From the NCBI GenBank assembly GCA_036924085.1, contig JAVGWX010000002.1:84314704-84378703 (forward strand): a DNA stretch of 64,000 bases. The letters are read 5' to 3'. This document shows positions 1 through 64,000 of the stretch, piece by piece; position 1 is the stretch's first letter, and each line of letters begins with the position of its first letter. The position numbers and the translations under genes were made by a program. The stretch comes from Ariolimax columbianus. Its lineage: Eukaryota; Mollusca; Gastropoda; Stylommatophora; Arionidae. The notes beneath the pieces were generated by a model, which ran no database searches, was not told the origin of the DNA, and worked only from the letters and a program-made list of their open reading frames with translations.

Positions 1-2
1 TC

Positions 3-170
3 AATTTTGATTTTAGAAACATTGGTTTTTCTTGTCAGTAAAATTACTTGAAAGTCAGTGGAAATGCTTTTAACATATCCACATAATTAGTACGTTAAAA
101 TTGCAATACATTTCAAAGTGCTGAAAATTGTTCAAACTTATAATATGCAATTTTTTTTCAAATCGCCTTT
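3..170 (+). repeat. Monomer class A (representative, 168 bp)
   Basis: Diagnostic bases: cttgtcag at about 29-36, aacatatcc at 70-78 (A where other classes have T), tagtacgtta at 86-95, and a 3' half beginning gtgctgaaaattgtt and carrying ttataatatgc. When followed by class B it lacks 5 bp at the end (cgccttt joined straight to aatttt), giving 168 bp; when followed by C2 it is 173 bp. A later subtype (from about 4.3 kb) has atatcc for atatgc, often with gtttaaac for gttcaaac. Another subtype has attgaatt near position 19. Class A starts most HOR modules, so it is a convenient phase marker. Confidence 0.85.
124..154 (+). other. Potential hairpin in the class A 3' half
   Basis: Arms aaaattg (124-130) and caatttt (148-154) are perfect 7-bp inverted repeats around a 17-nt loop. 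The same pairing exists in class E and in the atatcc subtype of A, where the second arm is preceded by c instead of g. Classes whose 3' half carries gctattttt lack the second arm. Whether it forms in vivo is unknown. Confidence 0.45.
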
Positions 171-344
171 AATTTTGATTTTAGAAACATTGGTTTTTCT
201 TGTAAGTAAATCTACTTGAAAGTGAGAGGAAATGCTTTTAACTTATCCACATAATTAGTGCGTTACAATTGCAATACATTTCAAAGTGCTGAACATTGTC
301 TTAGTTTATGATCGGCAATTTTTTTTCAAATCGCCTTATTACTC
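171..344 (+). repeat. Monomer class B (representative, 174 bp)
   Basis: The 5' half is marked by cttgtaagtaaa and gtgagaggaaatgc, found in no other class. This version has aaatctac and the W-specific 3' half with ctgaacattgtcttag, gatcggc and cgccttattactc, giving 174 bp. Elsewhere class B has aaaactac and takes 3' halves from several other classes (gtctgaac, gaataaac with atcttcaa, or the short aaactttgatc form), which marks it as a frequent exchange partner. Confidence 0.85.
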
Positions 345-416
345 AATTTTGATTTTAGAAACATTGGTTTTTCTTGTTAGAAAAATTACTTGAAAGTCAG
401 TGGAAATGCTTTTAAC

Positions 417-4479: not shown

Positions 4480-5339
4480 AATTTTGATTTTAGAAACATT
4501 GGTTTTTCTTGTAAGTAAAACTACTTGAAAGTGAGAGGAAATGCTTTTAACTTATCCACATAATTAGTGCGTTACAATTGCAATACATTTCAAAGTGCTG
4601 AAAATTATCTGAACTTATGATATGCTATTTTTTTACAAATCGCATTCTACTCAATTTTGATTTTAGAAACATTGGTTTTTCTTGTCAGTAAAATTACTTG
4701 AAAGTCAGTGGAAATGCTTTCAACTTATCCACATAATTAGTACGTTAAAATTGCAATACATTTCAAAGTGCTGAAAATTGTTTAAACTTATAATATGCAA
4801 TTTTTTTTCAAATCGCCTTCTACTAAGATTTGATTTTAGAAACATTGGTTTTTCTTGTTAGAAAAATTACTTGAAAGTCAGTGGAAATGCTTTTAACTTA
4901 TCCACATAATTAGTGCGTTACAATTGCAATACATTTCAAAGTTCTGAAAATTGAATAAACTTATGACCTGCTATTTTTTTTTAAATCGCTTTCTACTCAA
5001 TTTTGATTTTAGAAACATTGGATTTTCTGGTCAGTAAAATTACTTAAAAGTCAGTGGAAATGCTTTTAACTTATCCACATAATTAGTGCGTTACAATTGC
5101 AATACATTTCAAAGTTCTGAAAATTGAATAAACTTATGATCTTCAATTTTTTTTCAAGTCGCTTTCTACTCAATTTTGATTTTAGAAACATTGGTTTTTC
5201 TTGTTAGTAAAATTACTTGAAAGTCAGTGGAAATGCTTTTAACTTATCCACATAATTAGTGCGTTACAATTGCAATACATTTCAAAGTGCTGAAAATTGT
5301 TCAAACTTATAATATCCAATTTTTTTTCAAATCGCCTTT
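4480..5339 (+). repeat. 860-bp duplication, copy 1: B E C Dk Hk-hybrid
   Basis: Five monomers from 4480, with rare marks gaaaattatctg, cgcattctac and tactaagattt. The last monomer (5172) starts as Hk but ends as class A (gttcaaac, atatcc, 168 bp), which recreates the A-to-B join and marks the exchange that made the duplication. The related array at 31881-32572 holds a single copy of this block. Confidence 0.85.
4999..5171 (+). repeat. Monomer class Dk (representative, 173 bp)
   Basis: D-type 5' end with acttaaaagtcag (A for G at position 48) and ccacata. The 3' half is gaataaac, ttatgatcttcaa, T8 and caagtcgc, a form otherwise seen only in class B hybrids. Dk is nearly always followed by Hk. 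Confidence 0.8.
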
Positions 5340-6199
5340 AATTTTGATTTTAGAAACATTGGTTTTTCTTGTAAGTAAAACTACTTGAAAGTGAGAGGAA
5401 ATGCTTTTAACTTATCCACATAATTAGTGCGTTACAATTGCAATACATTTCAAAGTGCTGAAAATTATCTGAACTTATGATATGCTATTTTTTTACAAAT
5501 CGCATTCTACTCAATTTTGATTTTAGAAACATTGGTTTTTCTTGTCAGTAAAATTACTTGAAAGTCAGTGGAAATGCTTTCAACTTATCCACATAATTAG
5601 TACGTTAAAATTGCAATACATTTCAAAGTGCTGAAAATTGTTTAAACTTATAATATGCAATTTTTTTTCAAATCGCCTTCTACTAAGATTTGATTTTAGA
5701 AACATTGGTTTTTCTTGTTAGAAAAATTACTTGAAAGTCAGTGGAAATGCTTTTAACTTATCCACATAATTAGTGCGTTACAATTGCAATACATTTCAAA
5801 GTTCTGAAAATTGAATAAACTTATGACCTGCTATTTTTTTTTAAATCGCTTTCTACTCAATTTTGATTTTAGAAACATTGGATTTTCTGGTCAGTAAAAT
5901 TACTTAAAAGTCAGTGGAAATGCTTTTAACTTATCCACATAATTAGTGCGTTACAATTGCAATACATTTCAAAGTTCTGAAAATTGAATAAACTTATGAT
6001 CTTCAATTTTTTTTCAAGTCGCTTTCTACTCAATTTTGATTTTAGAAACATTGGTTTTTCTTGTTAGTAAAATTACTTGAAAGTCAGTGGAAATGCTTTT
6101 AACTTATCCACATAATTAGTGCGTTACAATTGCAATACATTTCAAAGTTCTGAAAATTGAATAAACTTATGATCTGCTATTTTTTTTCAAATCGCTTTC
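5340..6199 (+). repeat. 860-bp duplication, copy 2
   Basis: Matches the preceding 860 bp, including gaaaattatctg, cgcattctac, tactaagattt and gacctgc. Its last monomer (6032) is an ordinary Hk and continues into Dg at 6205, so the copies separate at the 3' half of the fifth monomer. The offset to the 30-kb copy drops from 27,401 to 26,541 across this block, exactly 860 bp. Confidence 0.85.
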
Positions 6200-6204
6200 T
6201 ACTC
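6032..6204 (+). repeat. Monomer class Hk (representative, 173 bp)
   Basis: Combines the H-type cttgttagtaaaatt with ccacataattagtgcg and the class C 3' half (gaataaac, ttatgatctgc, T8). It follows Dk or a class B hybrid ending caagtcgc and is followed by Dg or by the D/A hybrid. Confidence 0.8.
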
Positions 6205-6377
6205 AATTTTGATTTTAGAAACATTGGATTTTCTGGTCAGTAAAATTACTTGAAAGTCAGTGGAAATGCTTTTAACTTATCCAGATAATTAGTGCGTTAC
6301 AATTGCAATACATTTCAAAGTTCTGAAAATTGAATAAACTTATGATATGCTATTTTTTTACAAATCGCTTTCTACTC
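6205..6377 (+). repeat. Monomer class Dg (representative, 173 bp)
   Basis: D-type 5' end with ccagataattag (G for C at position 80), so the ttatccaca box is changed to ttatccaga. The 3' half is gaataaac plus ttatgatatgc, T7, ac. Some copies have gtgctgaaaattgaataaac, others gttctgaaaattg. Class A always follows. Confidence 0.8.
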
Positions 6378-8275
6378 AATTTTGATTTTAGAAACATTGG
6401 TTTTTCTTGTCAGTAAAATTACTTGAAAGTCAGTGGAAATGCTTTTAACATATCCACATAATTAGTACGTTAAAATTGCAATACATTTCAAAGTGCTGAA
6501 AATTGTTTAAACTTATAATATCCAATTTTTTTTCAAATCGCCTTTAATTTTGATTTTAGAAACATTGGTTTTTCTTGTAAGTAAAACTACTTGAAAGTGA
6601 GAGGAAATGCTTTTAACTTATCCACATAATTAGTGCGTTACAATTGCAATACATTTCAAAGTGCTGAAAATTGTCTGAACTTATGATATGCTATTTTTTT
6701 ACAAATCGCTTTCTACTCAATTTTGATTTTAGAAACATTGGATTTTCTGGTCAGTAAAATTACTTGAAAGTCAGTGGAAATGCTTTTAACTTATCCACAT
6801 AATTAGTGCGTTACAATTGCAATACATTTCAAAGTTCTGAAAATTGAATAAACTCATGATCTGCTATTTTTTTTCAAATCGCTTTCTACTCAATTTTGAT
6901 TTTAGAAACATTGGTTTTTCTTGTTAGTAAAATTACTTGAAAGTCAGTGGAAATGCTTTTAACTTATCCACACAATTAGTGCGTTACAATTGCAATACAT
7001 TTCAAAGTGCTGAAATTTGTCTGAACTTATGATATGCTATTTTTTTACAAATCGCTTTCTACTCAATTTTGATTTTAGAAACATTGGTTTTTCTTGTCAG
7101 TAAAATTACTTGAAAGTCAGTGGAAATGCTTTCAACTTATCCACATAATTAGTACGTTAAAATTGCAATACATTTCAAAGTGCTGAAAATTGTTCAAACT
7201 TATAATATGCAATTTTTTTTCAAATCGCTTTCTACTCAGATTTGATTTTAGAAACATTGGTTTTTCTTGTTAGAAAAATTACTTGAAAGTCAGTGGAAAT
7301 GCTTTTAACTTATCCACATAATTAGTGCGTTACAATTGCAATACATTTCAAAGTTCTGAAAATTGAATAAACTTATGATCTGCTGTTTTTTTTCAAATCG
7401 CTTTCTACTCAATTTTGATTTTAGAAACATTGGTTTTTCTTGTCAGTAAAATTACTTGAAAGTCAGTGGAAATGCTTTTAACTTATCCACAAAATTAGTG
7501 CGTTACAATTGCAATACATTTCAAAGTTCTGAAAATTGAATAAACTTATGACCTGCTATTTTTTTTAAAATCGCTTTCTACTCAATTTTGATTTTAGAAA
7601 CATTGGATTTTCTGGTCAGTAAAATTACTTGAAAGTCAGAGGAAATGCTTTTAACTTATCCACAAAATTAGTGCGTTACAATTGCAATACATTTCAAAGT
7701 TCTGAAAATTGAATAAACTTATGACCTGCTATTTTTTTTTAAATCGCTTTCTACTCAATTTTGATTTTAGAAACATTGGATTTTCTGGTCAGTAAAATTA
7801 CTTAAAAGTCAGTGGAAATGCTTTTAACTTATCCACATAATTAGTGCGTTACAATTGCAATACATTTCAAAGTTCTGAAAATTGAATAAACTTATGATCT
7901 TCAATTTTTTTTCAAGTCGCTTTCTACTCAATTTTGATTTTAGAAACATTGGTTTTTCTTGTTAGTAAAATTACTTGAAAGTCAGTGGAAATGCTTTTAA
8001 CTTATCCACATAATTAGTGCGTTACAATTGCAATACATTTCAAAGTTCTGAAAATTGAATAAACTTATGATCTGCTATTTTTTTTCAAATCGCTTTCTAC
8101 TCAATTTTGATTTTAGAAACATTGGATTTTCTGGTCAGTAAAATTACTTGAAAGTCAGTGGAAATGCTTTTAACTTATCCAGATAATTAGTGCGTTACAA
8201 TTGCAATACATTTCAAAGTGCTGAAAATTGAATAAACTTATGATATGCTATTTTTTTACAAATCACTTTCTACTC
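6378..8275 (+). repeat. Y module (11-mer, 1,898 bp): A B D H E C I Da Dk Hk Dg
   Basis: Starts 6378, 6546, 6719, 6892, 7065, 7238, 7411, 7584, 7757, 7930, 8103. The same order and length recur at 32919, 46177 and 52893, and at 56165 with a hybrid first monomer. The class I position (7411) has cttgtcag instead of ctggtcag. Da has a private gtcagagg. Confidence 0.85.
7584..7756 (+). repeat. Monomer class Da (representative, 173 bp)
   Basis: D-type 5' end with ccacaaaattagtgcg and a 3' half with ttatgacctgc followed by a long T tract and aaatcgc (T8 or T9 before the A run, varying between copies). This copy has a private gtcagagg. Da lies between class I and Dk in every 11-, 13- and 14-mer. Confidence 0.8.
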
Positions 8276-10514
8276 AATTTTGATTTTAGAAACATTGGTT
8301 TTTCTTGTCAGTAAAATTACTTGAAAGTCAGTGGAAATGCTTTTAACATATCCACATAATTAGTACGTTAAAATTGCAATACATTTCAAAGTGCTGAAAA
8401 TTGTTTAAACTTATAATATCCAATTTTTTTTCAAATCGCCTTTAATTGTGATTTTAGAAACATTGGTTTTTCTTGTAAGTAAAACTACTTGAAAGTGAGA
8501 GGAAATGCTTTTAACTTATCCACATAATTAGTGCGTTACAATTGCAATACATTTCAAAGTTCTGAAAATTGAATAAACTTATGATCTTCAATTTTTTTTC
8601 AAGTCGCTTTCTACTCAATTTTGATTTTAGAAACATTGGTTTTTCTTGTTAGTAAAATTACTTGAAAGTCAGTGGAAATGCTTTTAACTTATCCACATAA
8701 TTAGTGCGTTACAATTGCAATACATTTCAAAGTTCTGAAAATTGAATAAACTTATGATCTGCTATTTTTTTTCAAATCGCTTTCTACTCAATTTTGATTT
8801 TAGAAACATTGGATTTTCTGGTCAGTAAAATTACTTGAAAGTCAGTGGAAATGCTTTTAACTTATCCAGATAATTAGTGCGTTACAATTGCAATACATTT
8901 CAAAGTTCTGAAAATTGAATAAACTTATGATATGCTATTTTTTTACAAATCGCTTTCTACTCAATTTTGATTTTAGAAACATTGGTTTTTCTTGTCAGTA
9001 AAATTACTTGAAAGTCAGTGGAAATGCTTTTAACATATCCACATAATTAGTACGTTAAAATTGCAATACATTTCAAAGTGCTGAAAATTGTTTAAACTTA
9101 TAATATCCAATTTTTTTTCAAATCGCCTTTAATTTTGATTTTAGAAACATTGGTTTTTCTTGTAAGTAAAACTACTTGAAAGTGAGAGGAAATGATTTTA
9201 ACTTATCCACATAATTAGTGCGTTACAATTGCAATACATTTCAAAGTGCTGAAAATTGTCTGAACTTATGATCTGCTATTTTTTTTCAAATCGCTTTCTA
9301 CTCAATTTTTATTTTAGAAACATTGGTTTTTCTTGTTAGTAAAATTACTTGAAAGTCAGTGGAAATGCTTTTAACTTATCCACACAATTAGTGCGTTACA
9401 ATTGCAATACATTTCAAAGTGCTGAAAATTGTCTGAACTTATGATATGCTATTTTTTTACAAATCACTTTCTACTCAATTTTGATTTTAGAAACATTGGT
9501 TTTTCTTGTCAGTAAAATTACTTGAAAGTCAGTGGAAATGCTTTCAACTTATCCACATAATTAGTACGTTACAATTGCAATACATTTCAAAGTGCTGAAA
9601 ATTGTTCAAACTTATAATATGCAATTTTTTTTCAAATCGCCTTCTACTCAGATTTGATTTTAGAAACATTGGTTTTTCTTGTTAGAAAAATTACTTGAAA
9701 GTCAGTGGAAATGCTTTTAACTTATCCACATAATTAGTGCGTTACAATTGCAATACATTTCAAAGTTCTGAAAATTGAATAAACTTATGATCTGCTGTTT
9801 TTTTTCAAATCGCTTTCTACTCAATTTTGATTTTAGAAACATTGGTTTTTCTGGTCAGTAAAATTACTTGAAAGTCAGTGGAAATGCTTTTAACTTATCC
9901 ACAAAATTAGTGCGTTACAATTGCAATACATTTCAAAGTTCTGAAAATTGAATAAACTTATGACCTGCTATTTTTTTTAAAATCGCTTTCTACTCAATTT
10001 TGATTTTAGAAACATTGGATTTTCTGGTCAGTAAAATTACTTGAAAGTCAGTGGAAATGCTTTTAACTTATCCACAAAATTAGTGCGTTACAATTGCAAT
10101 ACATTTCAAAGTTCTGAAAATTGAATAAACTTATGACCTGCTATTTTTTTTAAAATCGCTTTCTACTCAATTTTGATTTTAGAAACATTGGATTTTCTGG
10201 TCAGTAAAATTACTTAAAAGTCAGTGGAAATGCTTTTAACTTATCCACATAATTAGTGCGTTACAATTGCAATACATTTCAAAGTTCTGAAAATTGAATA
10301 AACTTATGATCTTCAATTTTTTTTCAAGTCGCTTTCTACTCAATTTTGATTTTAGAAACATTGGTTTTTCTTGTTAGTAAAATTACTTGAAAGTCAGTGG
10401 AAATGCTTTTAACTTATCCACATAATTAGTGCGTTACAATTGCAATACATTTCAAAGTTCTGAAAATTGAATAAACTTATGATCTGCTATTTTTTTTCAA
10501 ATCGCTTTCTACTC
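8276..10514 (+). repeat. Z module (13-mer, 2,239 bp): A B Hk Dg A B H E C I Da Dk Hk
   Basis: Starts 8276, 8444, 8617, 8790, 8963, 9131, 9304, 9477, 9650, 9823, 9996, 10169, 10342. Marks: aattgtgatttt in the first B, aaatgatttt in the second B (9194), aatttttatttt in H, acgttacaattg in E. Recurs at 14824 and 23613, and at 34817 with the last monomer Dg. The first B takes a Dk-type 3' half (atcttcaa, caagtcgc), so it is a B/Dk hybrid. Confidence 0.85.
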
Positions 10515-11720
10515 AATTTTGATTTTAGAAACATTGGATTTTCTGGTCAGTAAAATTACTTGAAAGTCACTGGAAATGCTTTTAACATATCCACATAATT
10601 AGTACGTTAAAATTGCAATACATTTCAAAGTGCTGAAAATTGTTCAAACTTATAATATGCAATTTTTTTTCAAATCGCCTTTAATTTTGATTTTAGAAAC
10701 ATTGGTTTTTCTTGTAAGTAAATCTACTTGAAAGTGAGAGGAAATGCTTTTAACTTATCCACATAATTAGTGCGTTACAATTGCAATACATTTCAAAGTG
10801 CTGAACATTGTCTTAGTTTATGATCGGCAATTTTTTTTCAAATCGCCTTATTACTCAATTTTGATTTTAGAAACATTGGTTTTTCTTGTTAGAAAAATTA
10901 CTTGAAAGTCAGTGGAAATGCTTTTAACTTATCCACATAATTAGTGCGTTACAATTGCAATACATTTCAAAGTTCTGAAAATTGAATAAACTTATGATCT
11001 GCTATTTTTTTTCAAATCGCTTTCTACTCAATTTTGATTTTAGAAACATTGGATTTTCTGGTCAGTAAAATTACTTGAAAGTCAGTGGAAATGCTTTTAA
11101 CTTATCCACATAATTAGTGCGTTACAATTGCAATACATTTCAAAGTGCTGAAAATTGTCTGAACTTATGATATGCTATTTTTTTACAAATCGCTTTCTAC
11201 TCAATTTTGATTTTAGAAACATTGGTTTTTCTTGTCAGTAAAATTACTTGAAAGTCAGTGGAAATGCTTTCAACTTATCCACATAATTAGTACGTTAAAA
11301 TGTCAATACATTTCAAAGTGCTGAAAATTGTTCAAACTTATAATATGCAATTTTTTTTCAAATCGCCTTCTACTCAGATTTGATTTTAGAAACATTTGTT
11401 TTTCTTGTTAGAAAAATTACTTGAAAGTCAGTGGAAATGCTTTTAACTTATCCACATAATTAGTGCGTTACAATTGCAATACATTTCAAAGTTCTGAAAA
11501 TTGAATAAACTTATGATCTGCTATTTTTTTTCAAATCGCTTTCTACTCAATTTTGATTTTAGAAACATTGGTTTTTCTGGTCAGTAAAATTACTTGAAAG
11601 TCAGTGGAAATGCTTTTAACTTATCCACAAAATTAGTGCGTTACAATTGCAATACATTTCAAAGTTCTGAAAATTGAATAAACTTTGATCTGCTATTTTT
11701 TTACAAATCGCTTTCTACTC
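10515..11720 (+). repeat. D/A hybrid plus W module: D/A B C D E F I
   Basis: The hybrid at 10515 begins as D (ggattttctggtcag), carries a private gtcactgg and continues as class A (aacatatcc, 168 bp). It is followed by the W run B (174 bp, gatcggc), C, D, tgtc-E, F and I at 10683, 10857, 11030, 11203, 11376 and 11549. The W run matches 2069-3106 at an offset of 8,614 bp. Confidence 0.82.
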
Positions 11721-13271
11721 AATTTTGATTTTAGAAACATTGGTTTTTCTTGTCAGTAAAATTACTTGAAAGTCAGTGGAAATGCTTTTAACATATCCAC
11801 ATAATTAGTACGTTAAAATTGCAATACATTTCAAAGTGCTGAAAATTGTTCAAACTTATAATATGCAATTTTTTTTCAAATCGCCTTCTACTCAGATTTG
11901 ATTTTATAAACATTGGTTTTTCTTGTTAGAAAAATTACTTGAAAGTCAGTGGAAATGCTTTTAACTTATCCACATAATTAGTACGTTACAATTGCAATAC
12001 ATTTCAAAGTTCTGAAACTTGAATAAACTTATGATCTGCTATTTTTTTTCAAATCGCTTTCTACTCAATTTTGATTTTAGAAACATTGAATTTTCTTGTC
12101 AGTAAAATTACTTGAAAGTCAGTGGAAATGCTTTTAACATATCCACATAATTAGTACGTTAAAATTGCAATACATTTCAAAGTGCTGAAAATTGTTCAAA
12201 CTTATAATATGCAATTTTTTTTCAAATCGCCTTTAATTTTGATTTTAGAAACATTGGTTTTTCTTGTAAGTAAATCTACTTGAAAGTGAGAGGAAATGCT
12301 TTTAACTTATCCACATAATTAGTGCGTTACAATTGCAATACATTTCAAAGTTCTGAAAATTGAATAAACTTATGATCTGCTATTTTTTTTCAAATCGCTT
12401 TCTACTCAATTTTGAATTTAGAAACATTGGATTTTCTGGTCAGTAAAATTACTTGAAAGTCAGTGGAAATGCTTTTAACTTATCCACATAATTAGTGCGT
12501 TACAATTGCAATACATTTCAAAGTTCTGAAAATTGAATAAACTCATGATCTGCTATTTTTTTTCAAATCGCTTTCTACTCAATTTTGATTTTAGAAACAT
12601 TGGTTTTTCTTGTTAGTAAAATTACTTGAAAGTCAGTGGAAATGCTTTTAACTTATCCACACAATTAGTGCGTTACAATTGCAATACATTTCAAAGTGCT
12701 GAAAATTGTCTGAACTTATGATATGCTATTTTTTTACAAATCGCTTTCTACTCAATTTTGATTTTAGAAACATTGGTTTTTCTTGTCAGTAAAATTACTT
12801 GAAAGTCAGTGGAAATGCTTTCAACTTATCCACATAATTAGTACGTTAAAATTGCAATACATTTCAAAGTGCTGAAAATTGTTCAAACTTATAATATGCA
12901 ATTTTTTTTCAAATCGCCTTCTACTCAGATTTGATTTTAGAAACATTGGTTTTTCTTGTTAGAAAAATTACTTGAAAGTCAGTGGAAATGCTTTTAACTT
13001 ATCCACATAATTAGTGCGTTACAATTGCAATACATTTCAAAGTTCTGAAAATTGAATAAACCTATGATCTGCTATTTTTTTTAAAATCGCTTTCTACTCA
13101 ATTTTGATTTTAGAAACATTGGTTTTTCTGGTCAGTAAAATTACTTGAAAGTCAGTGGAAATGCTTTTAACTTATCCACAAAGTTAGTGCGTTACAATTG
13201 CAATACATTTCAAAGTTCTGAAAATTGAATAAACTTTGATCTGCTATTTTTTTACAAATTGCTTTCTACTC
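11721..13271 (+). repeat. X module with G H E C I: A C2 A B G H E C I (1,551 bp)
   Basis: Starts 11721, 11894, 12067, 12235, 12408, 12581, 12754, 12927, 13100. The second half (12408 on) matches 1037-1900 at an offset of 11,371 bp, including cctatg, aagttag and caaattgc; the first half matches 3107-3793. It is therefore a join of two arrangements that are separate in the first 4 kb. C2 here has gaaacttgaa. Confidence 0.8.
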
Positions 13272-18268: not shown

Positions 18269-19133
18269 AATTTTGATTTTAGAAACATTGGTTTTTCTTG
18301 TAAGTAAATCTACTTGAAAGTGAGAGGAAATGCTTTTAACTTATCCACATAATTAGTGCGTTACAATTGCAATACATTTCAAAGTGCTGAACATTGTCTT
18401 AGTTTATGATCGGCAATTTTTTTTCAAATCGCCTTATTACTCAATTTTGATTTTAGAAACATTGGTTTTTCTTGTTAGAAAAATTACTTGAAAGTCAGTG
18501 GAAATGCTTTTAACTTATCCACATAATTAGTGCGTTACAATTGCAATACATTTCAAAGTGCTGAAAATTGTCTGAACTTATGATATGCTATTTTTTTACA
18601 AATCGCTTTCTACTCAATTTTGATTTTAGAAACATTGGTTTTTCTTGTCAGTAAAATTACTTGAAAGTCAGTGGAAATGCTTTCAACTTATCCACATAAT
18701 TAGTACGTTAAAATGTCAATACATTTCAAAGTGCTGAAAATTGTTCAAACTTATAATATGCAATTTTTTTTCAAATCGCCTTCTACTCAGATTTGATTTT
18801 AGAAACATTTGTTTTTCTTGTTAGAAAAATTACTTGAAAGTCAGTGGAAATGCTTTTAACTTATCCACATAATTAGTGCGTTACAATTGCAATACATTTC
18901 AAAGTTCTGAAAATTGAATAAACTTATGATCTGCTATTTTTTTTCAAATCGCTTTCTACTCAATTTTGATTTTAGAAACATTGGTTTTTCTGGTCAGTAA
19001 AATTACTTGAAAGTCAGTGGAAATGCTTTTAACTTATCCACAAAATTAGTGCGTTACAATTGCAATACATTTCAAAGTTCTGAAAATTGAATAAACTTTG
19101 ATCTGCTATTTTTTTACAAATCGCTTTCTACTC
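18269..19133 (+). repeat. Shortened W module: B C/D E F I
   Basis: The monomer at 18443 begins as C (cttgttagaaaaatt) and ends as D (gtctgaac, gatatgc, T7 ac), replacing the separate C and D at 10857 and 11030 with one hybrid. The same hybrid recurs at 27232. Then tgtc-E 18616, F 18789, I 18962. Confidence 0.83.
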
Positions 19134-50486: not shown

Positions 50487-52205
50487 AATTTTGATTTTAG
50501 AAACATTGGTTTTTCTTGTCAGTAAAATTACTTGAAAGTCAGTGGAAATGCTTTTAACATATCCACATAATTAGTACGTTAAAATTGCAATACATTTCAA
50601 AGTGCTGAAAATTGTTTAAACTTATAATATCCAATTTTTTTTCAAATCGCCTTTAATTTTGATTTTAGAAACATTGGTTTTTCTTGTAAGTAAAACTACT
50701 TGAAAGTGAGAGGAAATGCTTTTAACTTATCCACATAATTAGTGCGTTACAATTGCAATACATTTCAAAGTTCTGAAAATTGAATAAACTTATGATCTTC
50801 AATTTTTTTTCAAGTCGCTTTCTACTCAATTTTGATTTTAGAAACATTGGTTTTTCTTGTTAGTAAAATTACTTGAAAGTCAGTGGAAATGCTTTTAACT
50901 TATCCACATAATTAGTGCGTTACAATTGCAATACATTTCAAAGTTCTGAAAATTGAATAAACTTATGATCTGCTATTTTTTTTCAAATCGCTTTCTACTC
51001 AATTTTGATTTTAGAAACATTGGATTTTCTGGTCAGTAAAATTACTTGAAAGTCAGTGGAAATGCTTTTAACTTATCCAGATAATTAGTGCGTTACAATT
51101 GCAATACATTTCAAAGTTCTGAAAATTGAATAAACTTATGATATGCTATTTTTTTACAAATCGCTTTCTACTCAATTTTGATTTTAGAAACATTGGTTTT
51201 TCTTGTCAGTAAAATTACTTGAAAGTCAGTGGAAATGCTTTTAACATATCCACATAATTAGTACGTTAAAATTGCAATACATTTCAAAGTGCTGAAAATT
51301 GTTTAAACTTATAATATCCAATTTTTTTTCAAATCGCCTTTAATTTTGATTTTAGAAACATTGGTTTTTCTTGTAAGTAAAACTACTTGAAAGTGAGAGG
51401 AAATGCTTTTAACTTATCCACATAATTAGTGCGTTACAATTGCAATACATTTCAAAGTGCTGAAAATTGTCTGAACTTATGATCTGCTATTTTTTTTCAA
51501 ATCGCTTTCTACTCAATTTTGATTTTAGAAACATTGGTTTTTCTTGTTAGTAAAATTACTTGAAAGTCAGTGGAAATGCTTTTAACTTATCCACACAATT
51601 AGTGCGTTACAATTGCAATACATTTCAAAGTGCTGAAAATTGTCTGAACTTATGATATGCTATTTTTTTACAAATCGCTTTCTACTCAATTTTGATTTTA
51701 GAAACATTGGTTTTTCTTGTCAGTAAAATTACTTGAAAGTCAGTGGAAATGCTTTCAACTTATCCACATAATTAGTACGTTAAAATTGCAATACATTTCA
51801 AAGTGCTGAAAATTGTTCAAACTTATAATATGCAATTTTTTTTCAAATCGCCTTCTACTCAGATTTGATTTTAGAAACATTGGTTTTTCTTGTTAGAAAA
51901 ATTACTTGAAAGTCAGTGGAAATGCTTTTAACTTATCCACATAATTAGTGCGTTACAATTGCAATACATTTCAAAGTTCTGAAAATTGAATAAACTTATG
52001 ATCTGCTGTTTTTTTTCAAATCGCTTTCTACTCAATTTTGATTTTAGAAACATTGGTTTTTCTGGTCAGTAAAATTACTTGAAAGTCAGTGGAAATGCTT
52101 TTAACTTATCCACAAAATTAGTGCGTTACAATTGCAATACATTTCAAAGTTCTGAAAATTGAATAAACTTTGATCTGCTATTTTTTTACAAATCGCTTTC
52201 TACTC
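50487..52205 (+). repeat. 10-mer module (1,719 bp), copy 2
   Basis: A B Hk Dg A B H E C I at 50487, 50655, 50828, 51001, 51174, 51342, 51515, 51688, 51861, 52034; same layout as 39122-40840 at an offset of 11,365 bp. Ends with the 172-bp form of class I. Confidence 0.85.
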
Positions 52206-52892
52206 AATTTTGATTTTAGAAACATTGGTTTTTCTTGTCAGTAAAATTACTTGAAAGTCAGTGGAAATGCTTTTAACATATCCACATAATTAGTACGTAA
52301 ATATTGCAATACATTTCAAAGTGCTGAAAATTGTTCAAACTTATAATATGCAATTTTTTTTCAAATCGCCTTCTACTCAGATTTGATTTTATAAACATTG
52401 GTTTTTTTTGTTAGAAAAATTACTTGAAAGTCAGTGGAAATGCTTTTAACTTATCCACATAATTAGTGCGTTACAATTGCAATACATTTCAAAGTTCTGA
52501 AAATTGAATAAACTTATGATCTGCTATTTTTTTTCAAATCGCTTTCTACTCAATTTTGATTTTAGAAACATTGAATTTTCTTGTCAGTAAAATTACTTGA
52601 AAGTCAGTGGAAATGCTTTTAACATATCCACATAATTAGTACGTTAAAATTGCAATACATTTCAAAGTGCTGAAAATTGTTCAAACTTATAATATGCAAT
52701 TTTTTTTCAAATCGCCTTTAATTTTGATTTTAGAAACATTGGTTTTTCTTGTAAGTAAATCTACTTGAAAGTGAGAGGAAATGCTTTTAACTTATCCACA
52801 TAATTAGTGCGTTACATTTGCAATACATTTCAAAGTTCTGAAAATTGAATAAACTTATGATCTGCTATTTTTTTTCAAATCGCTTTCTACTC
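52206..52892 (+). repeat. Truncated X module: A C2 A B
   Basis: Starts 52206, 52379, 52552, 52720. A has acgtaaatatt, B has acatttgc. The module stops after B, where class A of the next Y module (52893) follows; in the other right-half copies G/E C Ic come next. Class B with its class C 3' half joins directly to A. Confidence 0.84.
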
Positions 52893-54790
52893 AATTTTGA
52901 TTTTAGAAACATTGGTTTTTCTTGTCAGTAAAATTACTTGAAAGTCAGTGGAAATGCTTTTAACATATCCACATAATTAGTACGTTAAAATTGCAATACA
53001 TTTCAAAGTGCTGAAAATTGTTTAAACTTATAATATCCAATTTTTTTTCAAATCGCCTTTAATTTTGATTTTAGAAACATTGGTTTTTCTTGTAAGTAAA
53101 ACTACTTGAAAGTGAGAGGAAATGCTTTTAACTTATCCACATAATTAGTGCGTTACAATTGCAATACATTTCAAAGTGCTGAAAATTGTCTGAACTTATG
53201 ATATGCTATTTTTTTACAAATCGCTTTCTACTCAATTTTGATTTTAGAAACATTGGATTTTCTGGTCAGTAAAATTACTTGAAAGTCAGTGGAAATGCTT
53301 TTAACTTATCCACATAATTAGTGCGTTACAATTGCAATACATTTCAAAGTTCTGAAAATTGAATAAACTCATGATCTGCTATTTTTTTTCAAATCGCTTT
53401 CTACTCAATTTTGATTTTAGAAACATTGGTTTTTCTTGTTAGTAAAATTACTTGAAAGTCAGTGGAAATGCTTTTAACTTATCCACACAATTAGTGCGTT
53501 ACAATTGCAATACATTTCAAAGTGCTGAAAATTGTCTGAACTTATGATATGCTATTTTTTTACAAATCGCTTTCTACTCAATTTTGATTTTAGAAACATT
53601 GGTTTTTCTTGTCAGTAAAATTACTTGAAAGTCAGTGGAAATGCTTTCAACTTATCCACATAATTAGTACGTTAAAATTGCAATACATTTCAAAGTGCTG
53701 AAAATTGTTCAAACTTATAATATGCAATTTTTTTTCAAATCGCCTTCTACTCAGATTTGATTTTAGAAACATTGGTTTTTCTTGTTAGAAAAATTACTTG
53801 AAAGTCAGTGGAAATGCTTTTAACTTATCCACATAATTAGTGCGTTACAATTGCAATACATTTCAAAGTTCTGAAAATTGAATAAACTTATGATCTGCTG
53901 TTTTTTTTCAAATCGCTTTCTACTCAATTTTGATTTTAGAAACATTGGTTTTTCTGGTCAGTAAAATTACTTGAAAGTCAGTGGAAATGCTTTTAACTTA
54001 TCCACAAAATTAGTGCGTTACAATTGCAATACATTTCAAAGTTCTGAAAATTGAATAAACTTATGACCTGCTATTTTTTTTTAAATCGCTTTCTACTCAA
54101 TTTTGATTTTAGAAACATTGGATTTTCTGGTCAGTAAAATTACTTGAAAGTCAGTGGAAATGCTTTTAACTTATCCACAAAATTAGTGCGTTACAATTGC
54201 AATACATTTCAAAGTTCTGAAAATTGAATAAACTTATGACCTGCTATTTTTTTTTAAATCGCTTTCTACTCAATTTTGATTTTAGAAACATTGGATTTTC
54301 TGGTCAGTAAAATTACTTAAAAGTCAGTGGAAATGCTTTTAACTTATCCACATAATTAGTGCGTTACAATTGCAATACATTTCAAAGTTCTGAAAATTGA
54401 ATAAACTTATGATCTTCAATTTTTTTTCAAGTCGCTTTCTACTCAATTTTGATTTTAGAAACATTGGTTTTTCTTGTTAGTAAAATTACTTGAAAGTCAG
54501 TGGAAATGCTTTTAACTTATCCACATAATTAGTGCGTTACAATTGCAATACATTTCAAAGTTCTGAAAATTGAATAAACTTATGATCTGCTATTTTTTTT
54601 CAAATCGCTTTCTACTCAATTTTGATTTTAGAAACATTGGATTTTCTGGTCAGTAAAATTACTTGAAAGTCAGTGGAAATGCTTTTAACTTATCCAGATA
54701 ATTAGTGCGTTACAATTGCAATACATTTCAAAGTGCTGAAAATTGAATAAACTTATGATATGCTATTTTTTTACAAATCGCTTTCTACTC
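52893..54790 (+). repeat. Y module (11-mer, 1,898 bp), copy 4
   Basis: A B D H E C I Da Dk Hk Dg at 52893, 53061, 53234, 53407, 53580, 53753, 53926, 54099, 54272, 54445, 54618. Same order as at 46177. Confidence 0.85.
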
Positions 54791-56280
54791 AATTTTGATT
54801 TTAGAGACATTGGTTTTTCTTGTCAGTAAAATTACTTGAAAGTCAGTGGAAATGCTTTTAACATATCCACATAATTAGTACGTTAAAATTGCAATACATT
54901 TCAAAGTGCTGAAAATTGTTTAAACTTATAATATCCAATTTTTTTTCAAATCGCCTTTAATTGTGATTTTAGAAACATTGGTTTTTCTTGTAAGTAAAAC
55001 TACTTGAAAGTGAGAGGAAATGCTTTTAACTTATCCACATAATTAGTGCGTTACAATTGCAATACATTTCAAAGTTCTGAAAATTGAATAAACTTATGAT
55101 CTTCAATTTTTTTTCAAGTCGCTTTCTACTCAATTTTGATTTTAGAAACATTGGTTTTTCTTGTTAGTAAAATTACTTGAAAGTCAGTGGAAATGCTTTT
55201 AACTTATCCACATAATTAGTGCGTTACAATTGCAATACATTTCAAAGTTCTGAAAATTGAATAAACTTATGATCTGCTATTTTTTTTCAAATCGCTTTCT
55301 ACTCAATTTTGATTTTAGAAACATTGGATTTTCTGGTCAGTAAAATTACTTGAAAGTCAGTGGAAATGCTTTTAACTTATCCAGATAATTAGTGCGTTAC
55401 AATTGCAATACATTTCAAAGTTATGAAAATTGAATAAACTTATGATATGCTATTTTTTTACAAATCGCTTTCTACTCAATTTTGATTTTAGAAACATTGG
55501 TTTTTCTTGTCAGTAAAATTACTTGAAAGTCAGTGGAAATGCTTTTAACATATCCACATAATTAGTACGTTAAAATTGCAATACATTTCAAAGTGCTGAA
55601 AATTGTTTAAACTTATAATATCCAATTTTTTTTCAAATCGCCTTTAATTTTGATTTTAGAAACATTGGTTTTTCTTGTAAGTAAAACTACTTGAAAGTGA
55701 GAGGAAATGCTTTTAACTTATCCACATAATTAGTGCGTTACAATTGCAATACATTTCAAAGTGCTGAAAATTGTCTGAACTTATGATCTGCTATTTTTTT
55801 TCAAATCGCTTTCTACTCAATTTTTATTTTAGAAACATTGGTTTTTCTTGTTAGTAAAATTACTTGAAAGTCAGTGGAAATGCTTTTAACTTATCCACAC
55901 AATTAGTGCGTTACAATTGCAATACATTTCAAAGTGCTGAAAATTGTCTGAACTTATGATATGCTATTTTTTTACAAATCACTTTCTACTCAATTTTGAT
56001 TTTAGAAACATTGGTTTTTCTTGTCAGTAAAATTACTTGAAAGTCAGTGGAAATGCTTTCAACTTATCCACATAATTAGTACGTTACAATTGCAATACAT
56101 TTCAAAGTGCTGAAAATTGTTCAAACTTATAATATGCAATTTTTTTTCAAATCGCCTTCTACTCAGATTTGATTTTAGAAACATTGGTTTTTCTTGTTAG
56201 AAAAATTACTTGAAAGTCAGTGGAAATGCTTTTAACTTATCCACATAATTAGTGCGTTACAATTGCAATACATTTCAAAG
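53009..56280 (+). repeat. 3,272-bp tandem duplication, copy 1 (19 monomers)
   Basis: Begins inside class A at 52893 and ends inside class C at 56165. Contains two marks otherwise unseen in the window: ttagagacat (agagac at 54803) in A at 54791 and gttatgaaaattg (ttatg at 55421) in Dg at 55305. Both recur exactly 3,272 bp downstream. The ends lie in a stretch shared by all monomers, so the edges are accurate only to some tens of bases. Confidence 0.88.
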
Positions 56281-59200
56281 TGCTGAAAATTGTTTAAACT
56301 TATAATATCCAATTTTTTTTCAAATCGCCTTTAATTTTGATTTTAGAAACATTGGTTTTTCTTGTAAGTAAAACTACTTGAAAGTGAGAGGAAATGCTTT
56401 TAACTTATCCACATAATTAGTGCGTTACAATTGCAATACATTTCAAAGTGCTGAAAATTGTCTGAACTTATGATATGCTATTTTTTTACAAATCGCTTTC
56501 TACTCAATTTTGATTTTAGAAACATTGGATTTTCTGGTCAGTAAAATTACTTGAAAGTCAGTGGAAATGCTTTTAACTTATCCACATAATTAGTGCGTTA
56601 CAATTGCAATACATTTCAAAGTTCTGAAAATTGAATAAACTCATGATCTGCTATTTTTTTTCAAATCGCTTTCTACTCAATTTTGATTTTAGAAACATTG
56701 GTTTTTCTTGTTAGTAAAATTACTTGAAAGTCAGTGGAAATGCTTTTAACTTATCCACACAATTAGTGCGTTACAATTGCAATACATTTCAAAGTGCTGA
56801 AAATTGTCTGAACTTATGATATGCTATTTTTTTACAAATCGCTTTCTACTCAATTTTGATTTTAGAAACATTGGTTTTTCTTGTCAGTAAAATTACTTGA
56901 AAGTCAGTGGAAATGCTTTCAACTTATCCACATAATTAGTACGTTAAAATTGCAATACATTTCAAAGTGCTGAAAATTGTTCAAACTTATAATATGCAAT
57001 TTTTTTTCAAATCGCCTTCTACTCAGATTTGATTTTAGAAACATTGGTTTTTCTTGTTAGAAAAATTACTTGAAAGTCAGTGGAAATGCTTTTAACTTAT
57101 CCACATAATTAGTGCGTTACAATTGCAATACATTTCAAAGTTCTGAAAATTGAATAAACTTATGATCTGCTGTTTTTTTTCAAATCGCTTTCTACTCAAT
57201 TTTGATTTTAGAAACATTGGTTTTTCTGGTCAGTAAAATTACTTGAAAGTCAGTGGAAATGCTTTTAACTTATCCACAAAATTAGTGCGTTACAATTGCA
57301 ATACATTTCAAAGTTCTGAAAATTGAATAAACTTATGACCTGCTATTTTTTTTTAAATCGCTTTCTACTCAATTTTGATTTTAGAAACATTGGATTTTCT
57401 GGTCAGTAAAATTACTTGAAAGTCAGTGGAAATGCTTTTAACTTATCCACAAAATTAGTGCGTTACAATTGCAATACATTTCAAAGTTCTGAAAATTGAA
57501 TAAACTTATGACCTGCTATTTTTTTTAAAATCGCTTTCTACTCAATTTTGATTTTAGAAACATTGGATTTTCTGGTCAGTAAAATTACTTAAAAGTCAGT
57601 GGAAATGCTTTTAACTTATCCACATAATTAGTGCGTTACAATTGCAATACATTTCAAAGTTCTGAAAATTGAATAAACTTATGATCTTCAATTTTTTTTC
57701 AAGTCGCTTTCTACTCAATTTTGATTTTAGAAACATTGGTTTTTCTTGTTAGTAAAATTACTTGAAAGTCAGTGGAAATGCTTTTAACTTATCCACATAA
57801 TTAGTGCGTTACAATTGCAATACATTTCAAAGTTCTGAAAATTGAATAAACTTATGATCTGCTATTTTTTTTCAAATCGCTTTCTACTCAATTTTGATTT
57901 TAGAAACATTGGATTTTCTGGTCAGTAAAATTACTTGAAAGTCAGTGGAAATGCTTTTAACTTATCCAGATAATTAGTGCGTTACAATTGCAATACATTT
58001 CAAAGTGCTGAAAATTGAATAAACTTATGATATGCTATTTTTTTACAAATCGCTTTCTACTCAATTTTGATTTTAGAGACATTGGTTTTTCTTGTCAGTA
58101 AAATTACTTGAAAGTCAGTGGAAATGCTTTTAACATATCCACATAATTAGTACGTTAAAATTGCAATACATTTCAAAGTGCTGAAAATTGTTTAAACTTA
58201 TAATATCCAATTTTTTTTCAAATCGCCTTTAATTGTGATTTTAGAAACATTGGTTTTTCTTGTAAGTAAAACTACTTGAAAGTGAGAGGAAATGCTTTTA
58301 ACTTATCCACATAATTAGTGCGTTACAATTGCAATACATTTCAAAGTTCTGAAAATTGAATAAACTTATGATCTTCAATTTTTTTTCAAGTCGCTTTCTA
58401 CTCAATTTTGATTTTAGAAACATTGGTTTTTCTTGTTAGTAAAATTACTTGAAAGTCAGTGGAAATGCTTTTAACTTATCCACATAATTAGTGCGTTACA
58501 ATTGCAATACATTTCAAAGTTCTGAAAATTGAATAAACTTATGATCTGCTATTTTTTTTCAAATCGCTTTCTACTCAATTTTGATTTTAGAAACATTGGA
58601 TTTTCTGGTCAGTAAAATTACTTGAAAGTCAGTGGAAATGCTTTTAACTTATCCAGATAATTAGTGCGTTACAATTGCAATACATTTCAAAGTTATGAAA
58701 ATTGAATAAACTTATGATATGCTATTTTTTTACAAATCGCTTTCTACTCAATTTTGATTTTAGAAACATTGGTTTTTCTTGTCAGTAAAATTACTTGAAA
58801 GTCAGTGGAAATGCTTTTAACATATCCACATAATTAGTACGTTAAAATTGCAATACATTTCAAAGTGCTGAAAATTGTTTAAACTTATAATATCCAATTT
58901 TTTTTCAAATCGCCTTTAATTTTGATTTTAGAAACATTGGTTTTTCTTGTAAGTAAAACTACTTGAAAGTGAGAGGAAATGCTTTTAACTTATCCACATA
59001 ATTAGTGCGTTACAATTGCAATACATTTCAAAGTGCTGAAAATTGTCTGAACTTATGATCTGCTATTTTTTTTCAAATCGCTTTCTACTCAATTTTTATT
59101 TTAGAAACATTGGTTTTTCTTGTTAGTAAAATTACTTGAAAGTCAGTGGAAATGCTTTTAACTTATCCACACAATTAGTGCGTTACAATTGCAATACATT

Positions 59201-59552
59201 TCAAAGTGCTGAAAATTGTCTGAACTTATGATATGCTATTTTTTTACAAATCACTTTCTACTCAATTTTGATTTTAGAAACATTGGTTTTTCTTGTCAGT
59301 AAAATTACTTGAAAGTCAGTGGAAATGCTTTCAACTTATCCACATAATTAGTACGTTACAATTGCAATACATTTCAAAGTGCTGAAAATTGTTCAAACTT
59401 ATAATATGCAATTTTTTTTCAAATCGCCTTCTACTCAGATTTGATTTTAGAAACATTGGTTTTTCTTGTTAGAAAAATTACTTGAAAGTCAGTGGAAATG
59501 CTTTTAACTTATCCACATAATTAGTGCGTTACAATTGCAATACATTTCAAAG
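56281..59552 (+). repeat. 3,272-bp tandem duplication, copy 2
   Basis: Repeats copy 1, with agagac at 58075 and ttatg at 58693. The junction lies in the monomer at 56165, which starts as C (cttgttagaaaaatt) and ends as A (gtttaaac, atatcc, 168 bp). At 59437 the corresponding C keeps its ordinary 3' half (ctgctgtttt), which places the end of the copy near 59552. Confidence 0.88.
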
Positions 59553-60474
59553 TTCTGAAAATTGAATAAACTTATGATCTGCTGTTTTTTTTCAAATCGC
59601 TTTCTACTCAATTTTGATTTTAGAAACATTGGTTTTTCTGGTCAGTAAAATTACTTGAAAGTCAGTGGAAATGCTTTTAACTTATCCACAAAATTAGTGC
59701 GTTACAATTGCAATACATTTCAAAGTTCTGAAAATTGAATAAACTTATGACCTGCTATTTTTTTTTAAATCGCTTTCTACTCAATTTTGATTTTAGAAAC
59801 ATTGGATTTTCTGGTCAGTAAAATTACTTGAAAGTCAGTGGAAATGCTTTTAACTTATCCACAAAATTAGTGCGTTACAATTGCAATACATTTCAAAGTT
59901 CTGAAAATTGAATAAACTTATGACCTGCTATTTTTTTTAAAATCGCTTTCTACTCAATTTTGATTTTAGAAACATTGGATTTTCTGGTCAGTAAAATTAC
60001 TTAAAAGTCAGTGGAAATGCTTTTAACTTATCCACATAATTAGTGCGTTACAATTGCAATACATTTCAAAGTTCTGAAAATTGAATAAACTTATGATCTT
60101 CAATTTTTTTTCAAGTCGCTTTCTACTCAATTTTGATTTTAGAAACATTGGTTTTTCTTGTTAGTAAAATTACTTGAAAGTCAGTGGAAATGCTTTTAAC
60201 TTATCCACATAATTAGTGCGTTACAATTGCAATACATTTCAAAGTTCTGAAAATTGAATAAACTTATGATCTGCTATTTTTTTTCAAATCGCTTTCTACT
60301 CAATTTTGATTTTAGAAACATTGGATTTTCTGGTCAGTAAAATTACTTGAAAGTCAGTGGAAATGCTTTTAACTTATCCAGATAATTAGTGCGTTACAAT
60401 TGCAATACATTTCAAAGTGCTGAAAATTGAATAAACTTATGATATGCTATTTTTTTACAAATCGCTTTCTACTC
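58063..60474 (+). repeat. Z module, 14-mer form (2,412 bp), copy 2
   Basis: A B Hk Dg A B H E C I Da Dk Hk Dg from 58063; same layout as 48075-50486. It overlaps the end of the 3,272-bp duplication and is the complete version of the nine-monomer fragment at 54791-56332. Confidence 0.84.
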
Positions 60475-62193
60475 AATTTTGATTTTAGAAACATTGGTTT
60501 TTCTTGTCAGTAAAATTACTTGAAAGTCAGTGGAAATGCTTTTAACATATCCACATAATTAGTACGTTAAAATTGCAATACATTTCAAAGTGCTGAAAAT
60601 TGTTTAAACTTATAATATCCAATTTTTTTTCAAATCGCCTTTAATTTTGATTTTAGAAACATTGGTTTTTCTTGTAAGTAAAACTACTTGAAAGTGAGAG
60701 GAAATGCTTTTAACTTATCCACATAATTAGTGCGTTACAATTGCAATACATTTCAAAGTTCTGAAAATTGAATAAACTTATGATCTTCAATTTTTTTTCA
60801 AGTCGCTTTCTACTCAATTTTGATTTTAGAAACATTGGTTTTTCTTGTTAGTAAAATTACTTGAAAGTCAGTGGAAATGCTTTTAACTTATCCACATAAT
60901 TAGTGCGTTACAATTGCAATACATTTCAAAGTTCTGAAAATTGAATAAACTTATGATCTGCTATTTTTTTTCAAATCGCTTTCTACTCAATTTTGATTTT
61001 AGAAACATTGGATTTTCTGGTCAGTAAAATTACTTGAAAGTCAGTGGAAATGCTTTTAACTTATCCAGATAATTAGTGCGTTACAATTGCAATACATTTC
61101 AAAGTTCTGAAAATTGAATAAACTTATGATATGCTATTTTTTTACAAATCGCTTTCTACTCAATTTTGATTTTAGAAACATTGGTTTTTCTTGTCAGTAA
61201 AATTACTTGAAAGTCAGTGGAAATGCTTTTAACATATCCACATAATTAGTACGTTAAAATTGCAATACATTTCAAAGTGCTGAAAATTGTTTAAACTTAT
61301 AATATCCAATTTTTTTTCAAATCGCCTTTAATTTTGATTTTAGAAACATTGGTTTTTCTTGTAAGTAAAACTACTTGAAAGTGAGAGGAAATGCTTTTAA
61401 CTTATCCACATAATTAGTGCGTTACAATTGCAATACATTTCAAAGTGCTGAAAATTGTCTGAACTTATGATCTGCTATTTTTTTTCAAATCGCTTTCTAC
61501 TCAATTTTGATTTTAGAAACATTGGTTTTTCTTGTTAGTAAAATTACTTGAAAGTCAGTGGAAATGCTTTTAACTTATCCACACAATTAGTGCGTTACAA
61601 TTGCAATACATTTCAAAGTGCTGAAAATTGTCTGAACTTATGATATGCTATTTTTTTACAAATCGCTTTCTACTCAATTTTGATTTTAGAAACATTGGTT
61701 TTTCTTGTCAGTAAAATTACTTGAAAGTCAGTGGAAATGCTTTCAACTTATCCACATAATTAGTACGTTAAAATTGCAATACATTTCAAAGTGCTGAAAA
61801 TTGTTCAAACTTATAATATGCAATTTTTTTTCAAATCGCCTTCTACTCAGATTTGATTTTAGAAACATTGGTTTTTCTTGTTAGAAAAATTACTTGAAAG
61901 TCAGTGGAAATGCTTTTAACTTATCCACATAATTAGTGCGTTACAATTGCAATACATTTCAAAGTTCTGAAAATTGAATAAACTTATGATCTGCTGTTTT
62001 TTTTCAAATCGCTTTCTACTCAATTTTGATTTTAGAAACATTGGTTTTTCTGGTCAGTAAAATTACTTGAAAGTCAGTGGAAATGCTTTTAACTTATCCA
62101 CAAAATTAGTGCGTTACAATTGCAATACATTTCAAAGTTCTGAAAATTGAATAAACTTTGATCTGCTATTTTTTTACAAATCGCTTTCTACTC
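60475..62193 (+). repeat. 10-mer module (1,719 bp), copy 3
   Basis: A B Hk Dg A B H E C I at 60475, 60643, 60816, 60989, 61162, 61330, 61503, 61676, 61849, 62022; offset 9,988 bp from copy 2. Again ends with the 172-bp class I and leads into the X module. Confidence 0.85.
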
Positions 62194-64000
62194 AATTTTG
62201 ATTTTAGAAACATTGGTTTTTCTTGTCAGTAAAATTACTTGAAAGTCAGTGGAAATGCTTTTAACATATCCACATAATTAGTACGTAAATATTGCAATAC
62301 ATTTCAAAGTGCTGAAAATTGTTCAAACTTATAATATGCAATTTTTTTTCAAATCGCCTTCTACTCAGATTTGATTTTATAAACATTGGTTTTTTTTGTT
62401 AGAAAAATTACTTGAAAGTCAGTGGAAATGCTTTTAACTTATCCACATAATTAGTGCGTTACAATTGCAATACATTTCAAAGTTCTGAAAATTGAATAAA
62501 CTTATGATCTGCTATTTTTTTTCAAATCGCTTTCTACTCAATTTTGATTTTAGAAACATTGAATTTTCTTGTCAGTAAAATTACTTGAAAGTCAGTGGAA
62601 ATGCTTTTAACATATCCACATAATTAGTACGTTAAAATTGCAATACATTTCAAAGTGCTGAAAATTGTTCAAACTTATAATATGCAATTTTTTTTCAAAT
62701 CGCCTTTAATTTTGATTTTAGAAACATTGGTTTTTCTTGTAAGTAAATCTACTTGAAAGTGAGAGGAAATGCTTTTAACTTATCCACATAATTAGTGCGT
62801 TACATTTGCAATACATTTCAAAGTTCTGAAAATTGAATAAACTTATGATCTGCTATTTTTTTTCAAATCGCTTTCTACTCAATTTTGAATTTAGAAACAT
62901 TGGATTTTCTGGTCAGTAAAATTACTTGAAAGTCAGTGGAAATGCTTTCAACTTATCCACATAATTAGTACGTTAAAATTGCAATACATTTCAAAGTGCT
63001 GAAAATTGTTCAAACTTATAATATGCAATTTTTTTTCAAATCGCCTTCTACTCAGATTTGATTTTAGAAACATTGGTTTTTCTTGTTAGAAAAATTACTT
63101 GAAAGTCAGTGGAAATGCTTTTAACTTATCCACATAATTAGTGCGTTACAATTGCAATACATTTCAAAGTTCTGAAAATTGAATAAACTTATGATCTGCT
63201 ATTTTTTTTCAAATCGCTTTCTACTCAATTTTGATTTTAGAAACATTGGTTTTTCTGGTCAGTAAAATTACTTGAAAGTCAGTGGAAATGCTTTTAACTT
63301 ATCCACACAATTAGTGCGTTACAATTGCAATACATTTCAAAGTTCTGAAAATTGAATAAACTTTGATCTGCTATTTTTTTACAAATCGCTTTCTACTCAA
63401 TTTTGATTTTAGAAACATTGGTTTTTCTTGTCAGTAAAATTACTTGAAAGTCAGTGGAAATGCTTTTAACATATCCACATAATTAGTACGTTAAAATTGC
63501 AATACATTTCAAAGTGCTGAAAATTGTTCAAACTTATAATATCCAATTTTTTTTCAAATCGCCTTTAATTTTGATTTTAGAAACATTGGTTTTTCTTGTA
63601 AGTAAAACTACTTGAAAGTGAGAGGAAATGCTTTTAACTTATCCACATAATTAGTGCGTTACAATTGCAATACATTTCAAAGTGCTGAAAATTATCTGAA
63701 CTTATGATCTGCTATTTTTTTACAAATCGCATTCTACTCAATTTTGATTTTAGAAACATTGGTTTTTCTTGTCAGTAAAATTACTTGAAAGTCAGTGGAA
63801 ATGCTTTCAACTTATCCACATAATTAGTACGTTAAAATTGCAATACATTTCAAAGTGCTGAAAATTGTTTAAACTTATAATATGCAATTTTTTTTCAAAT
63901 CGCCTTCTACTCAGATTTGATTTTAGAAACATTGGTTTTTCTTGTTAGAAAAATTACTTGAAAGTCAGTGGAAATGCTTTTAACTTATCCACATAATTAG
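62194..64000 (+). repeat. X module and following B E C, cut by the window end
   Basis: A C2 A B G/E C Ic A B E C at 62194, 62367, 62540, 62708, 62881, 63054, 63227, 63399, 63567, 63740, 63913 (last one partial). Matches 40841 on at an offset of 21,353 bp through 63566, including acgtaaatatt and acatttgc. The B at 63567 combines gaaaattatctg with gatctgc, a mix not seen elsewhere. Confidence 0.83.

Follow-up and report, generated by a model that had tools for sequence, protein, structure and literature searches.

A continuous ~173-bp satellite array with strongly ordered monomers and an irregular, nested higher-order structure

Introduction

The systems closest to the DNA studied here are presented from extracts of the cited papers. 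The orangutan alpha satellite contains cascading higher-order repeats (HORs), with a 58mer on the Y (PMC12428378) and a 59mer on chromosome 13 (PMC11276891), and the 58mer array comprises 67 copies, 46 of which are canonical (PMC12428378). The satellite DNAs of Meloidogyne occur both as simple and as higher-order arrays (PMC3694981, PMC9673304), and CENP-B box-like and Box 2 junctions have been proposed to act in their rearrangement (PMC3694981). How unequal exchange and break-induced replication contribute to the evolution of satellites has been reviewed (PMC8122249).

Here we analysed a stretch of 64,000 nt, called the window throughout, that a preliminary description had presented as a three-tier HOR built from modules of exact length. 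Set beside the systems above, the array is most likely ordinary in kind, being a real and strongly ordered satellite with an irregular nested higher-order structure. Its very large top tier had been considered unusual, an opinion weakened by the 58mer and 59mer alpha-satellite units described in these extracts (PMC12428378, PMC11276891), since they show that a top tier of ~10 kb is large yet has precedent.

Results

TRF detected a period of 173 bp over positions 1-64000, with 371.5 copies and 92% matches. Segmentation by wrap-around alignment to a 173-bp consensus yielded 372 pieces, that is 371 complete monomers and one piece cut to 90 bp at the window end. The corresponding feature is:

1 to 64000, + strand: continuous array of ~173-bp satellite monomers (TRF and wrap-around alignment segmentation).

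All monomers are on the + strand and not a single insertion was found across the 64,000 nt. The window therefore has what defines a satellite DNA array, a long head-to-tail succession of one monomer family (371 full monomers, no insertion), and the ~173-bp tier of the preliminary description is confirmed. The array is AT-rich, with a G+C content of 27% (17,395 of 64,000 bases). The length of the complete monomers was 173 bp in 295 cases, 168 bp in 52, 172 bp in 17, 174 bp in six and 171 bp in one. As all 371 fall between 168 and 174 bp, gains and losses have involved whole monomers, apart from indels of 1-5 bases inside monomers. Pairwise identity over all pairs ranged from 84 to 100% with a median of 92.5%, and 75 distinct sequences were counted among the 371 monomers. 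Variation along the monomer was uneven, and the longest stretch without any change across the 371 monomers covered the 13 bases at columns 104-116.

Scans of the window gave no Rfam hit at the gathering score, no tRNA and no open reading frame of at least 70 aa (table 11). A 10-bp nucleosome-like phasing of AA/TT/TA was not seen, the strongest periods of the consensus being 21.6, 3.3 and 28.8 bp, and dyads of 8-10 bp were present in bases 1-346, the only stretch scanned for them. Two core patterns, one of 31 bases and one of 30, had no exact match in prokaryotic genome contigs, nor had the 31-base pattern in viral contigs; bases 1-1900 (1,900 of 64,000) had no match in plasmid and phage collections. 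Because these collections cover prokaryotes, viruses and plasmids, the lack of matches says little about eukaryotic relatives. Seven monomer words of 16-20 bases were absent from the literature text searched.

Average-linkage clustering with a cut-off of 4 differences sorted the monomers into 22 classes, a number that varies with the cut-off (38 classes at 2 differences, 12 at 6). The longest class word found more than once was 49 monomers long. In 200 shuffles this length never exceeded 6, and in Markov simulations of order 1, 2 and 3 (200 each) the maxima were 30, 39 and 44, respectively. The monomer order is thus far from random, and the earlier claim that monomer classes recur in fixed orders holds. 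Exact repeats of at least 1,038 bp covered 89.7% of the window, and 179 near-identical pairs with a length of 1 kb or more were detected by a diagonal scan. Among the 70 longest pairs listed, the longest were those at offsets of 8,789 bp (99.91% identity), 9,988 bp (99.75%) and 26,541 bp (99.54%), located by diagonal scan and mismatch list, together with the class string for the second:

11181 to 28553, + strand: tandem doubling at 8,789 bp, 11181-19764 against 19970-28553.
46180 to 63047, + strand: pair at an offset of 9,988 bp, 46180-53059 against 56168-63047.
5159 to 10799, + strand: block with a second copy 26,541 bp away.
31700 to 37340, + strand: second copy of the block 5159-10799.

The two halves of the 8,789-bp doubling differ by 8 mismatches in 8,584 bp, five of which are found at 19647-19704. 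The 9,988-bp pair carries 17 mismatches in 6,880 bp and aligns 38 consecutive monomers of the same class, with a period of 58 monomers. In the 26,541-bp pair, 16 of the 26 mismatches in 5,641 bp are grouped at 10313-10723. These data support a recently duplicated, nested organisation, and no insertion in the window contradicts the nesting without foreign DNA noted earlier.

Exact class-word matching, applied to periods of at least 2 monomers, retrieved five head-to-tail runs with at least two full copies:

46689 to 52031, + strand: 14-monomer word of 2,412 bp, 2.21 tandem copies.
56677 to 62019, + strand: the same 14-monomer word of 2,412 bp at a second place, 2.21 tandem copies.
44796 to 47207, + strand: 7-monomer word of 1,206 bp, 2.0 tandem copies.
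16196 to 18266, + strand: 6-monomer word of 1,038 bp, 2.0 tandem copies.
24985 to 27055, + strand: the 6-monomer word of 1,038 bp at its other place, inside the right-hand copy of the 8,789-bp doubling, 2.0 tandem copies.

Nine more runs were nearly tandem, with 1.64-1.96 copies. By exact class matching within this window, no class word of at least 2 monomers exceeded 2.21 tandem copies, and the proposed middle-tier modules were consequently not borne out as a tandem tier.

Repeat distances were evaluated by two tests. In the first, exact 173-base matches were counted at each offset, and the maximum at any offset in 100 whole-monomer shuffles was 1,033. For the proposed module lengths, 155 matches were obtained at 1,719 bp, 1,782 at 1,898 bp, 1,727 at 2,239 bp and 4,497 at 2,412 bp; for the longer distances, the counts were 2,736 at 7,413 bp, 7,775 at 8,789 bp (the best offset), 5,722 at 9,988 bp and 2,194 at 11,365 bp. 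All named offsets except 1,719 bp thus surpassed the shuffle maximum. As many as 66 offsets did so, including one of 687 bp (four monomers; 2,881 matches) that is absent from the preliminary description, and the named offsets therefore do not form a closed set of tiers. The second test, coarser and harsher, counted same-class monomer pairs at exact spacing, for which the maximum in 100 shuffles was 19 at any offset above 1,000 bp. Values above the shuffles were obtained at 2,239 bp (24/359), 2,412 bp (58/358), 7,413 bp (21/329), 8,789 bp (49/321) and 9,988 bp (38/314); those at 1,719 bp (2/362), 1,898 bp (17/361), 1,206 bp (15/365) and 11,365 bp (15/306) were not above them.

The diagonals anticipated at 1,898, 2,239, 7,413 and 8,789 bp were all found. 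At 1,898 bp, the contiguous block 1-1172 is repeated with 3 mismatches in 1,172 bp; at 11,365 bp, the block 38810-41694 is repeated with 12 mismatches. The 2,239-bp diagonal spans 2,436 bp with 10 mismatches, and those at 7,413 bp span 2,258 bp with 3 mismatches and 1,285 bp with 5. The window accordingly shows favoured offsets that exceed 100 shuffles, instead of equal diagonals at every multiple of ~173 bp. Among the four module lengths, the last three thus stand as offsets (exact matches above 1,033), while 1,719 bp fails in both tests. Modules of 1,719 bp may nevertheless exist without recurring at that distance.

The largest level of organization was followed with a landmark word, picked after the class string had been inspected:

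2587 to 62705, + strand: nine landmark words EFIEFJ, starting at 2587, 11201, 18614, 19990, 27403, 28954, 40321, 51686 and 61674.

The successive spacings are 8614, 7413, 1376, 7413, 1551, 11367, 11365 and 9988 bp. Two of these eight intervals are short (1.4-1.6 kb), and the other six are long cycles that comprise 43-66 monomers. Outside whole-monomer gaps, pairs of long cycles are 99.2-99.97% identical over 35-57 aligned monomers, these identities leaning upward because the alignment rewards similar monomers. The three cycles of the right half are 99.6-99.8% identical pairwise over 50-57 monomers. Compared with 300 first-order Markov pairs, 13 of the 15 cycle pairs exceeded the 95th percentile and 6 the maximum, the remaining two lying just inside the 95th percentile (33.0 versus 33.2); these 15 pairs are not independent, because two of the cycles are copies of each other. 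A loose top tier of 7.4-11.4 kb therefore exists, and its unit length is not fixed. As in HORs, copies are more alike than the monomers within a copy (cycles at 99.2-99.97%, leaning high, versus a monomer median of 92.5%), but a fixed-length multimer repeated many times head to tail is not observed, the maximum in this window being 2.21 copies. The recurring order of the landmarks, a point against a mosaic, could mean a more regular unit. The internal whole-monomer gaps by which the long cycles differ were counted for block turnover.

Two earlier proposals concerning this tier are thus modified. The 7,413-bp super-repeat of the left half is above the shuffles as an offset, but it is no independent unit, since two successive landmark intervals within the doubling add up to its period (7413 + 1376 = 8789); the clean repeat is the 8,789-bp doubling itself. 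In the right half, modules had been placed at 40841, 52206 and 62194. Their spacings, 11,365 and 9,988 bp, hold exactly, and these modules make up the right-hand portion of longer blocks starting from 38810. From 40841 and 52206 the sequences are collinear for ~850 bp, with 8 mismatches to that point, after which a whole-monomer length difference breaks the register, because one of the cycles carries extra monomers; from 40841 and 62194 they are collinear for ~1,490 bp with one mismatch. With cycle lengths that differ by whole monomers and tandem copy numbers this low, the regular three-tier hierarchy of fixed modules was not supported.

Finally, a neutral process was simulated, in which monomer blocks are randomly duplicated or deleted and new variants rarely arise (1,500 events, six settings, 12 runs each). 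With a mean block of 30 monomers and 0.1 new variants per event, the 12 runs bracketed the three values found in the window: the longest word was 26-86 monomers (observed 49), the number of classes 10-23 (observed 22) and the tandem copies 2.0-5.25 (observed 2.21). Each of the other five settings missed at least one observed value in all 12 runs. With a mean block of 15 and 0.1 variants per event, the number of classes fitted and the longest word did not exceed 47; 0.5 new variants per event gave too many classes at every block length; and with a mean block of 5 the longest word did not exceed 30 in 24 runs. As one of six settings brackets the data and the three statistics were compared singly, not jointly per run, the simulations speak for the sufficiency of such a process, not for its occurrence.

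Discussion

It is quite probable that the window is a mosaic of overlapping recent duplications in a young, fast-turning array, generated by homologous exchange in register, and not a clean three-level repeat. Such an array would turn over through unequal sister-chromatid exchange, or through repair inside the array, either break-induced or synthesis-dependent. Blocks ranging from about one monomer to some tens would be repeatedly duplicated and deleted, and newer duplications copying older ones would produce nested, imperfect HORs. We infer that the array is young and by what mechanism it exchanges, whereas the array itself, its ordered classes, its near-identical blocks and its length changes are observed. 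The large length changes correspond to whole numbers of monomers, as homologous exchange in register gives. From the sequence of the window, unequal sister exchange, break-induced replication and gene conversion are indistinguishable. The mosaic reading does not rest on the offsets of 1,898 and 7,413 bp.

A different view would be that the window is a stretch rich in variant copies of a regular large HOR of a centromeric satellite, with a unit of ~58-66 monomers (10-11 kb). The four landmarks of the right half, spaced by 11,367, 11,365 and 9,988 bp, and the close pairwise identity of the three cycles that they delimit agree with this view, but cycle length and content vary, no word of at least 2 monomers rises above 2.21 tandem copies, and the left half contains cycles of 7.4-8.6 kb along with two intervals of just 1.4-1.6 kb. 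We therefore regard a regular HOR as unlikely. It is still less probable that a long-read assembly duplicated or mis-ordered near-identical blocks. The 8,789-bp doubling would be the foremost candidate for such an artefact, being 99.91% identical over 8,584 bp with five of its eight mismatches in a 58-bp stretch near the junction, but two single-occurrence monomers with private changes lie at that junction, and numerous further blocks, found at various offsets, have scattered differences of their own, so that the general pattern is independent of any one join. Finally, it is very improbable that a conserved protein-binding motif drives the rearrangement here, as the extract on Meloidogyne satellites proposes (PMC3694981), since, in spite of the uneven monomer variation, the 13-base invariant run at columns 104-116 and a slightly lower number of distinct units when monomers are cut inside columns 60-118 (68 minimum, 79 maximum over phases), the best match to the 17-bp CENP-B box in the consensus, the only sequence scanned for it, is 10/17, a shuffle-level score that 219 of 300 shuffled consensus sequences reach or exceed, and the 16 distinct branch points (13 contexts) do not clearly depart from uniformity, a number small enough for a moderate bias to hide. 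A search for a junction hotspot among these branch points found none, and recombination focused on the conserved monomer region was likewise considered a weak candidate, with 68-79 distinct units according to the cutting phase.

On the mosaic reading, the window is a clear case of nested block turnover free of insertions. It could serve to calibrate HOR callers and models of exchange, and illustrates that overlapping duplications can yield convincing 'tiers'. By itself, the array offers no direct handle on centromere function and is of moderate use as an example. The window could represent a putative centromere of a non-model organism whose satellite forms irregular cascading super-repeats of 43-66 monomers, a type that the extracts describe for orangutan alpha satellite and that would then have arisen independently in unrelated satellites, but we hold this to be doubtful.

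The comparison with known systems again relies on extracts of the cited papers. The window resembles arrays shaped by Smith-type unequal exchange (theory cited in PMC8122249) in its nested order and low tandem copy numbers, which match one of the six simulation settings, and among the few features tested none departed from that model. Like the Meloidogyne satellites, it is a non-primate satellite with a mosaic or higher-order arrangement, the MEL 172 family being close in length (compared by description); but Meloidogyne HORs join highly divergent monomers at conserved boxes, whereas the monomers here are all alike and their consensus contains no CENP-B-like box above chance. With the orangutan cascading HORs it shares, at the level of organisation, a monomer near 171-173 bp, a unit of tens of monomers, near-identical copies and the recurrence of some monomer types inside the unit. 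In contrast with the orangutan 58mer, its six long cycles range between 43 and 66 monomers in length, and its monomers are alike at 84-100%.

Possibly exchanged monomer halves and block boundaries

Monomers of 168 bp, which make up classes A, J and P, were found throughout the window. A 5-base shortening close to the monomer end, aligned as two gaps, is common to the three classes. Because their 3' parts are similar whereas their 5' parts differ, the monomer halves look as if they had been swapped. The following monomers each represent a class of their own:

42212-42383, + strand: single class V monomer, flanked on both sides by class-A monomers
19646-19818, + strand: class T monomer, single occurrence, at the junction of the 8,789-bp blocks
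19819-19989, + strand: class U monomer, single occurrence, at the same junction

The class V monomer is M-like in its 5' half and I-like in its 3' half; it is likely to be an exchange hybrid. Classes T and U, with one monomer each in the window, together lie astride the junction between the two block copies (19646-19989). Each of the two has private changes, one of which, in U, is a 2-base gap.

Regarding the 26,541-bp pair, 16 of the 26 mismatches sit in the final stretch (10313-10723 versus 36854-37264), and the near-identical block therefore probably stops near 10,300.
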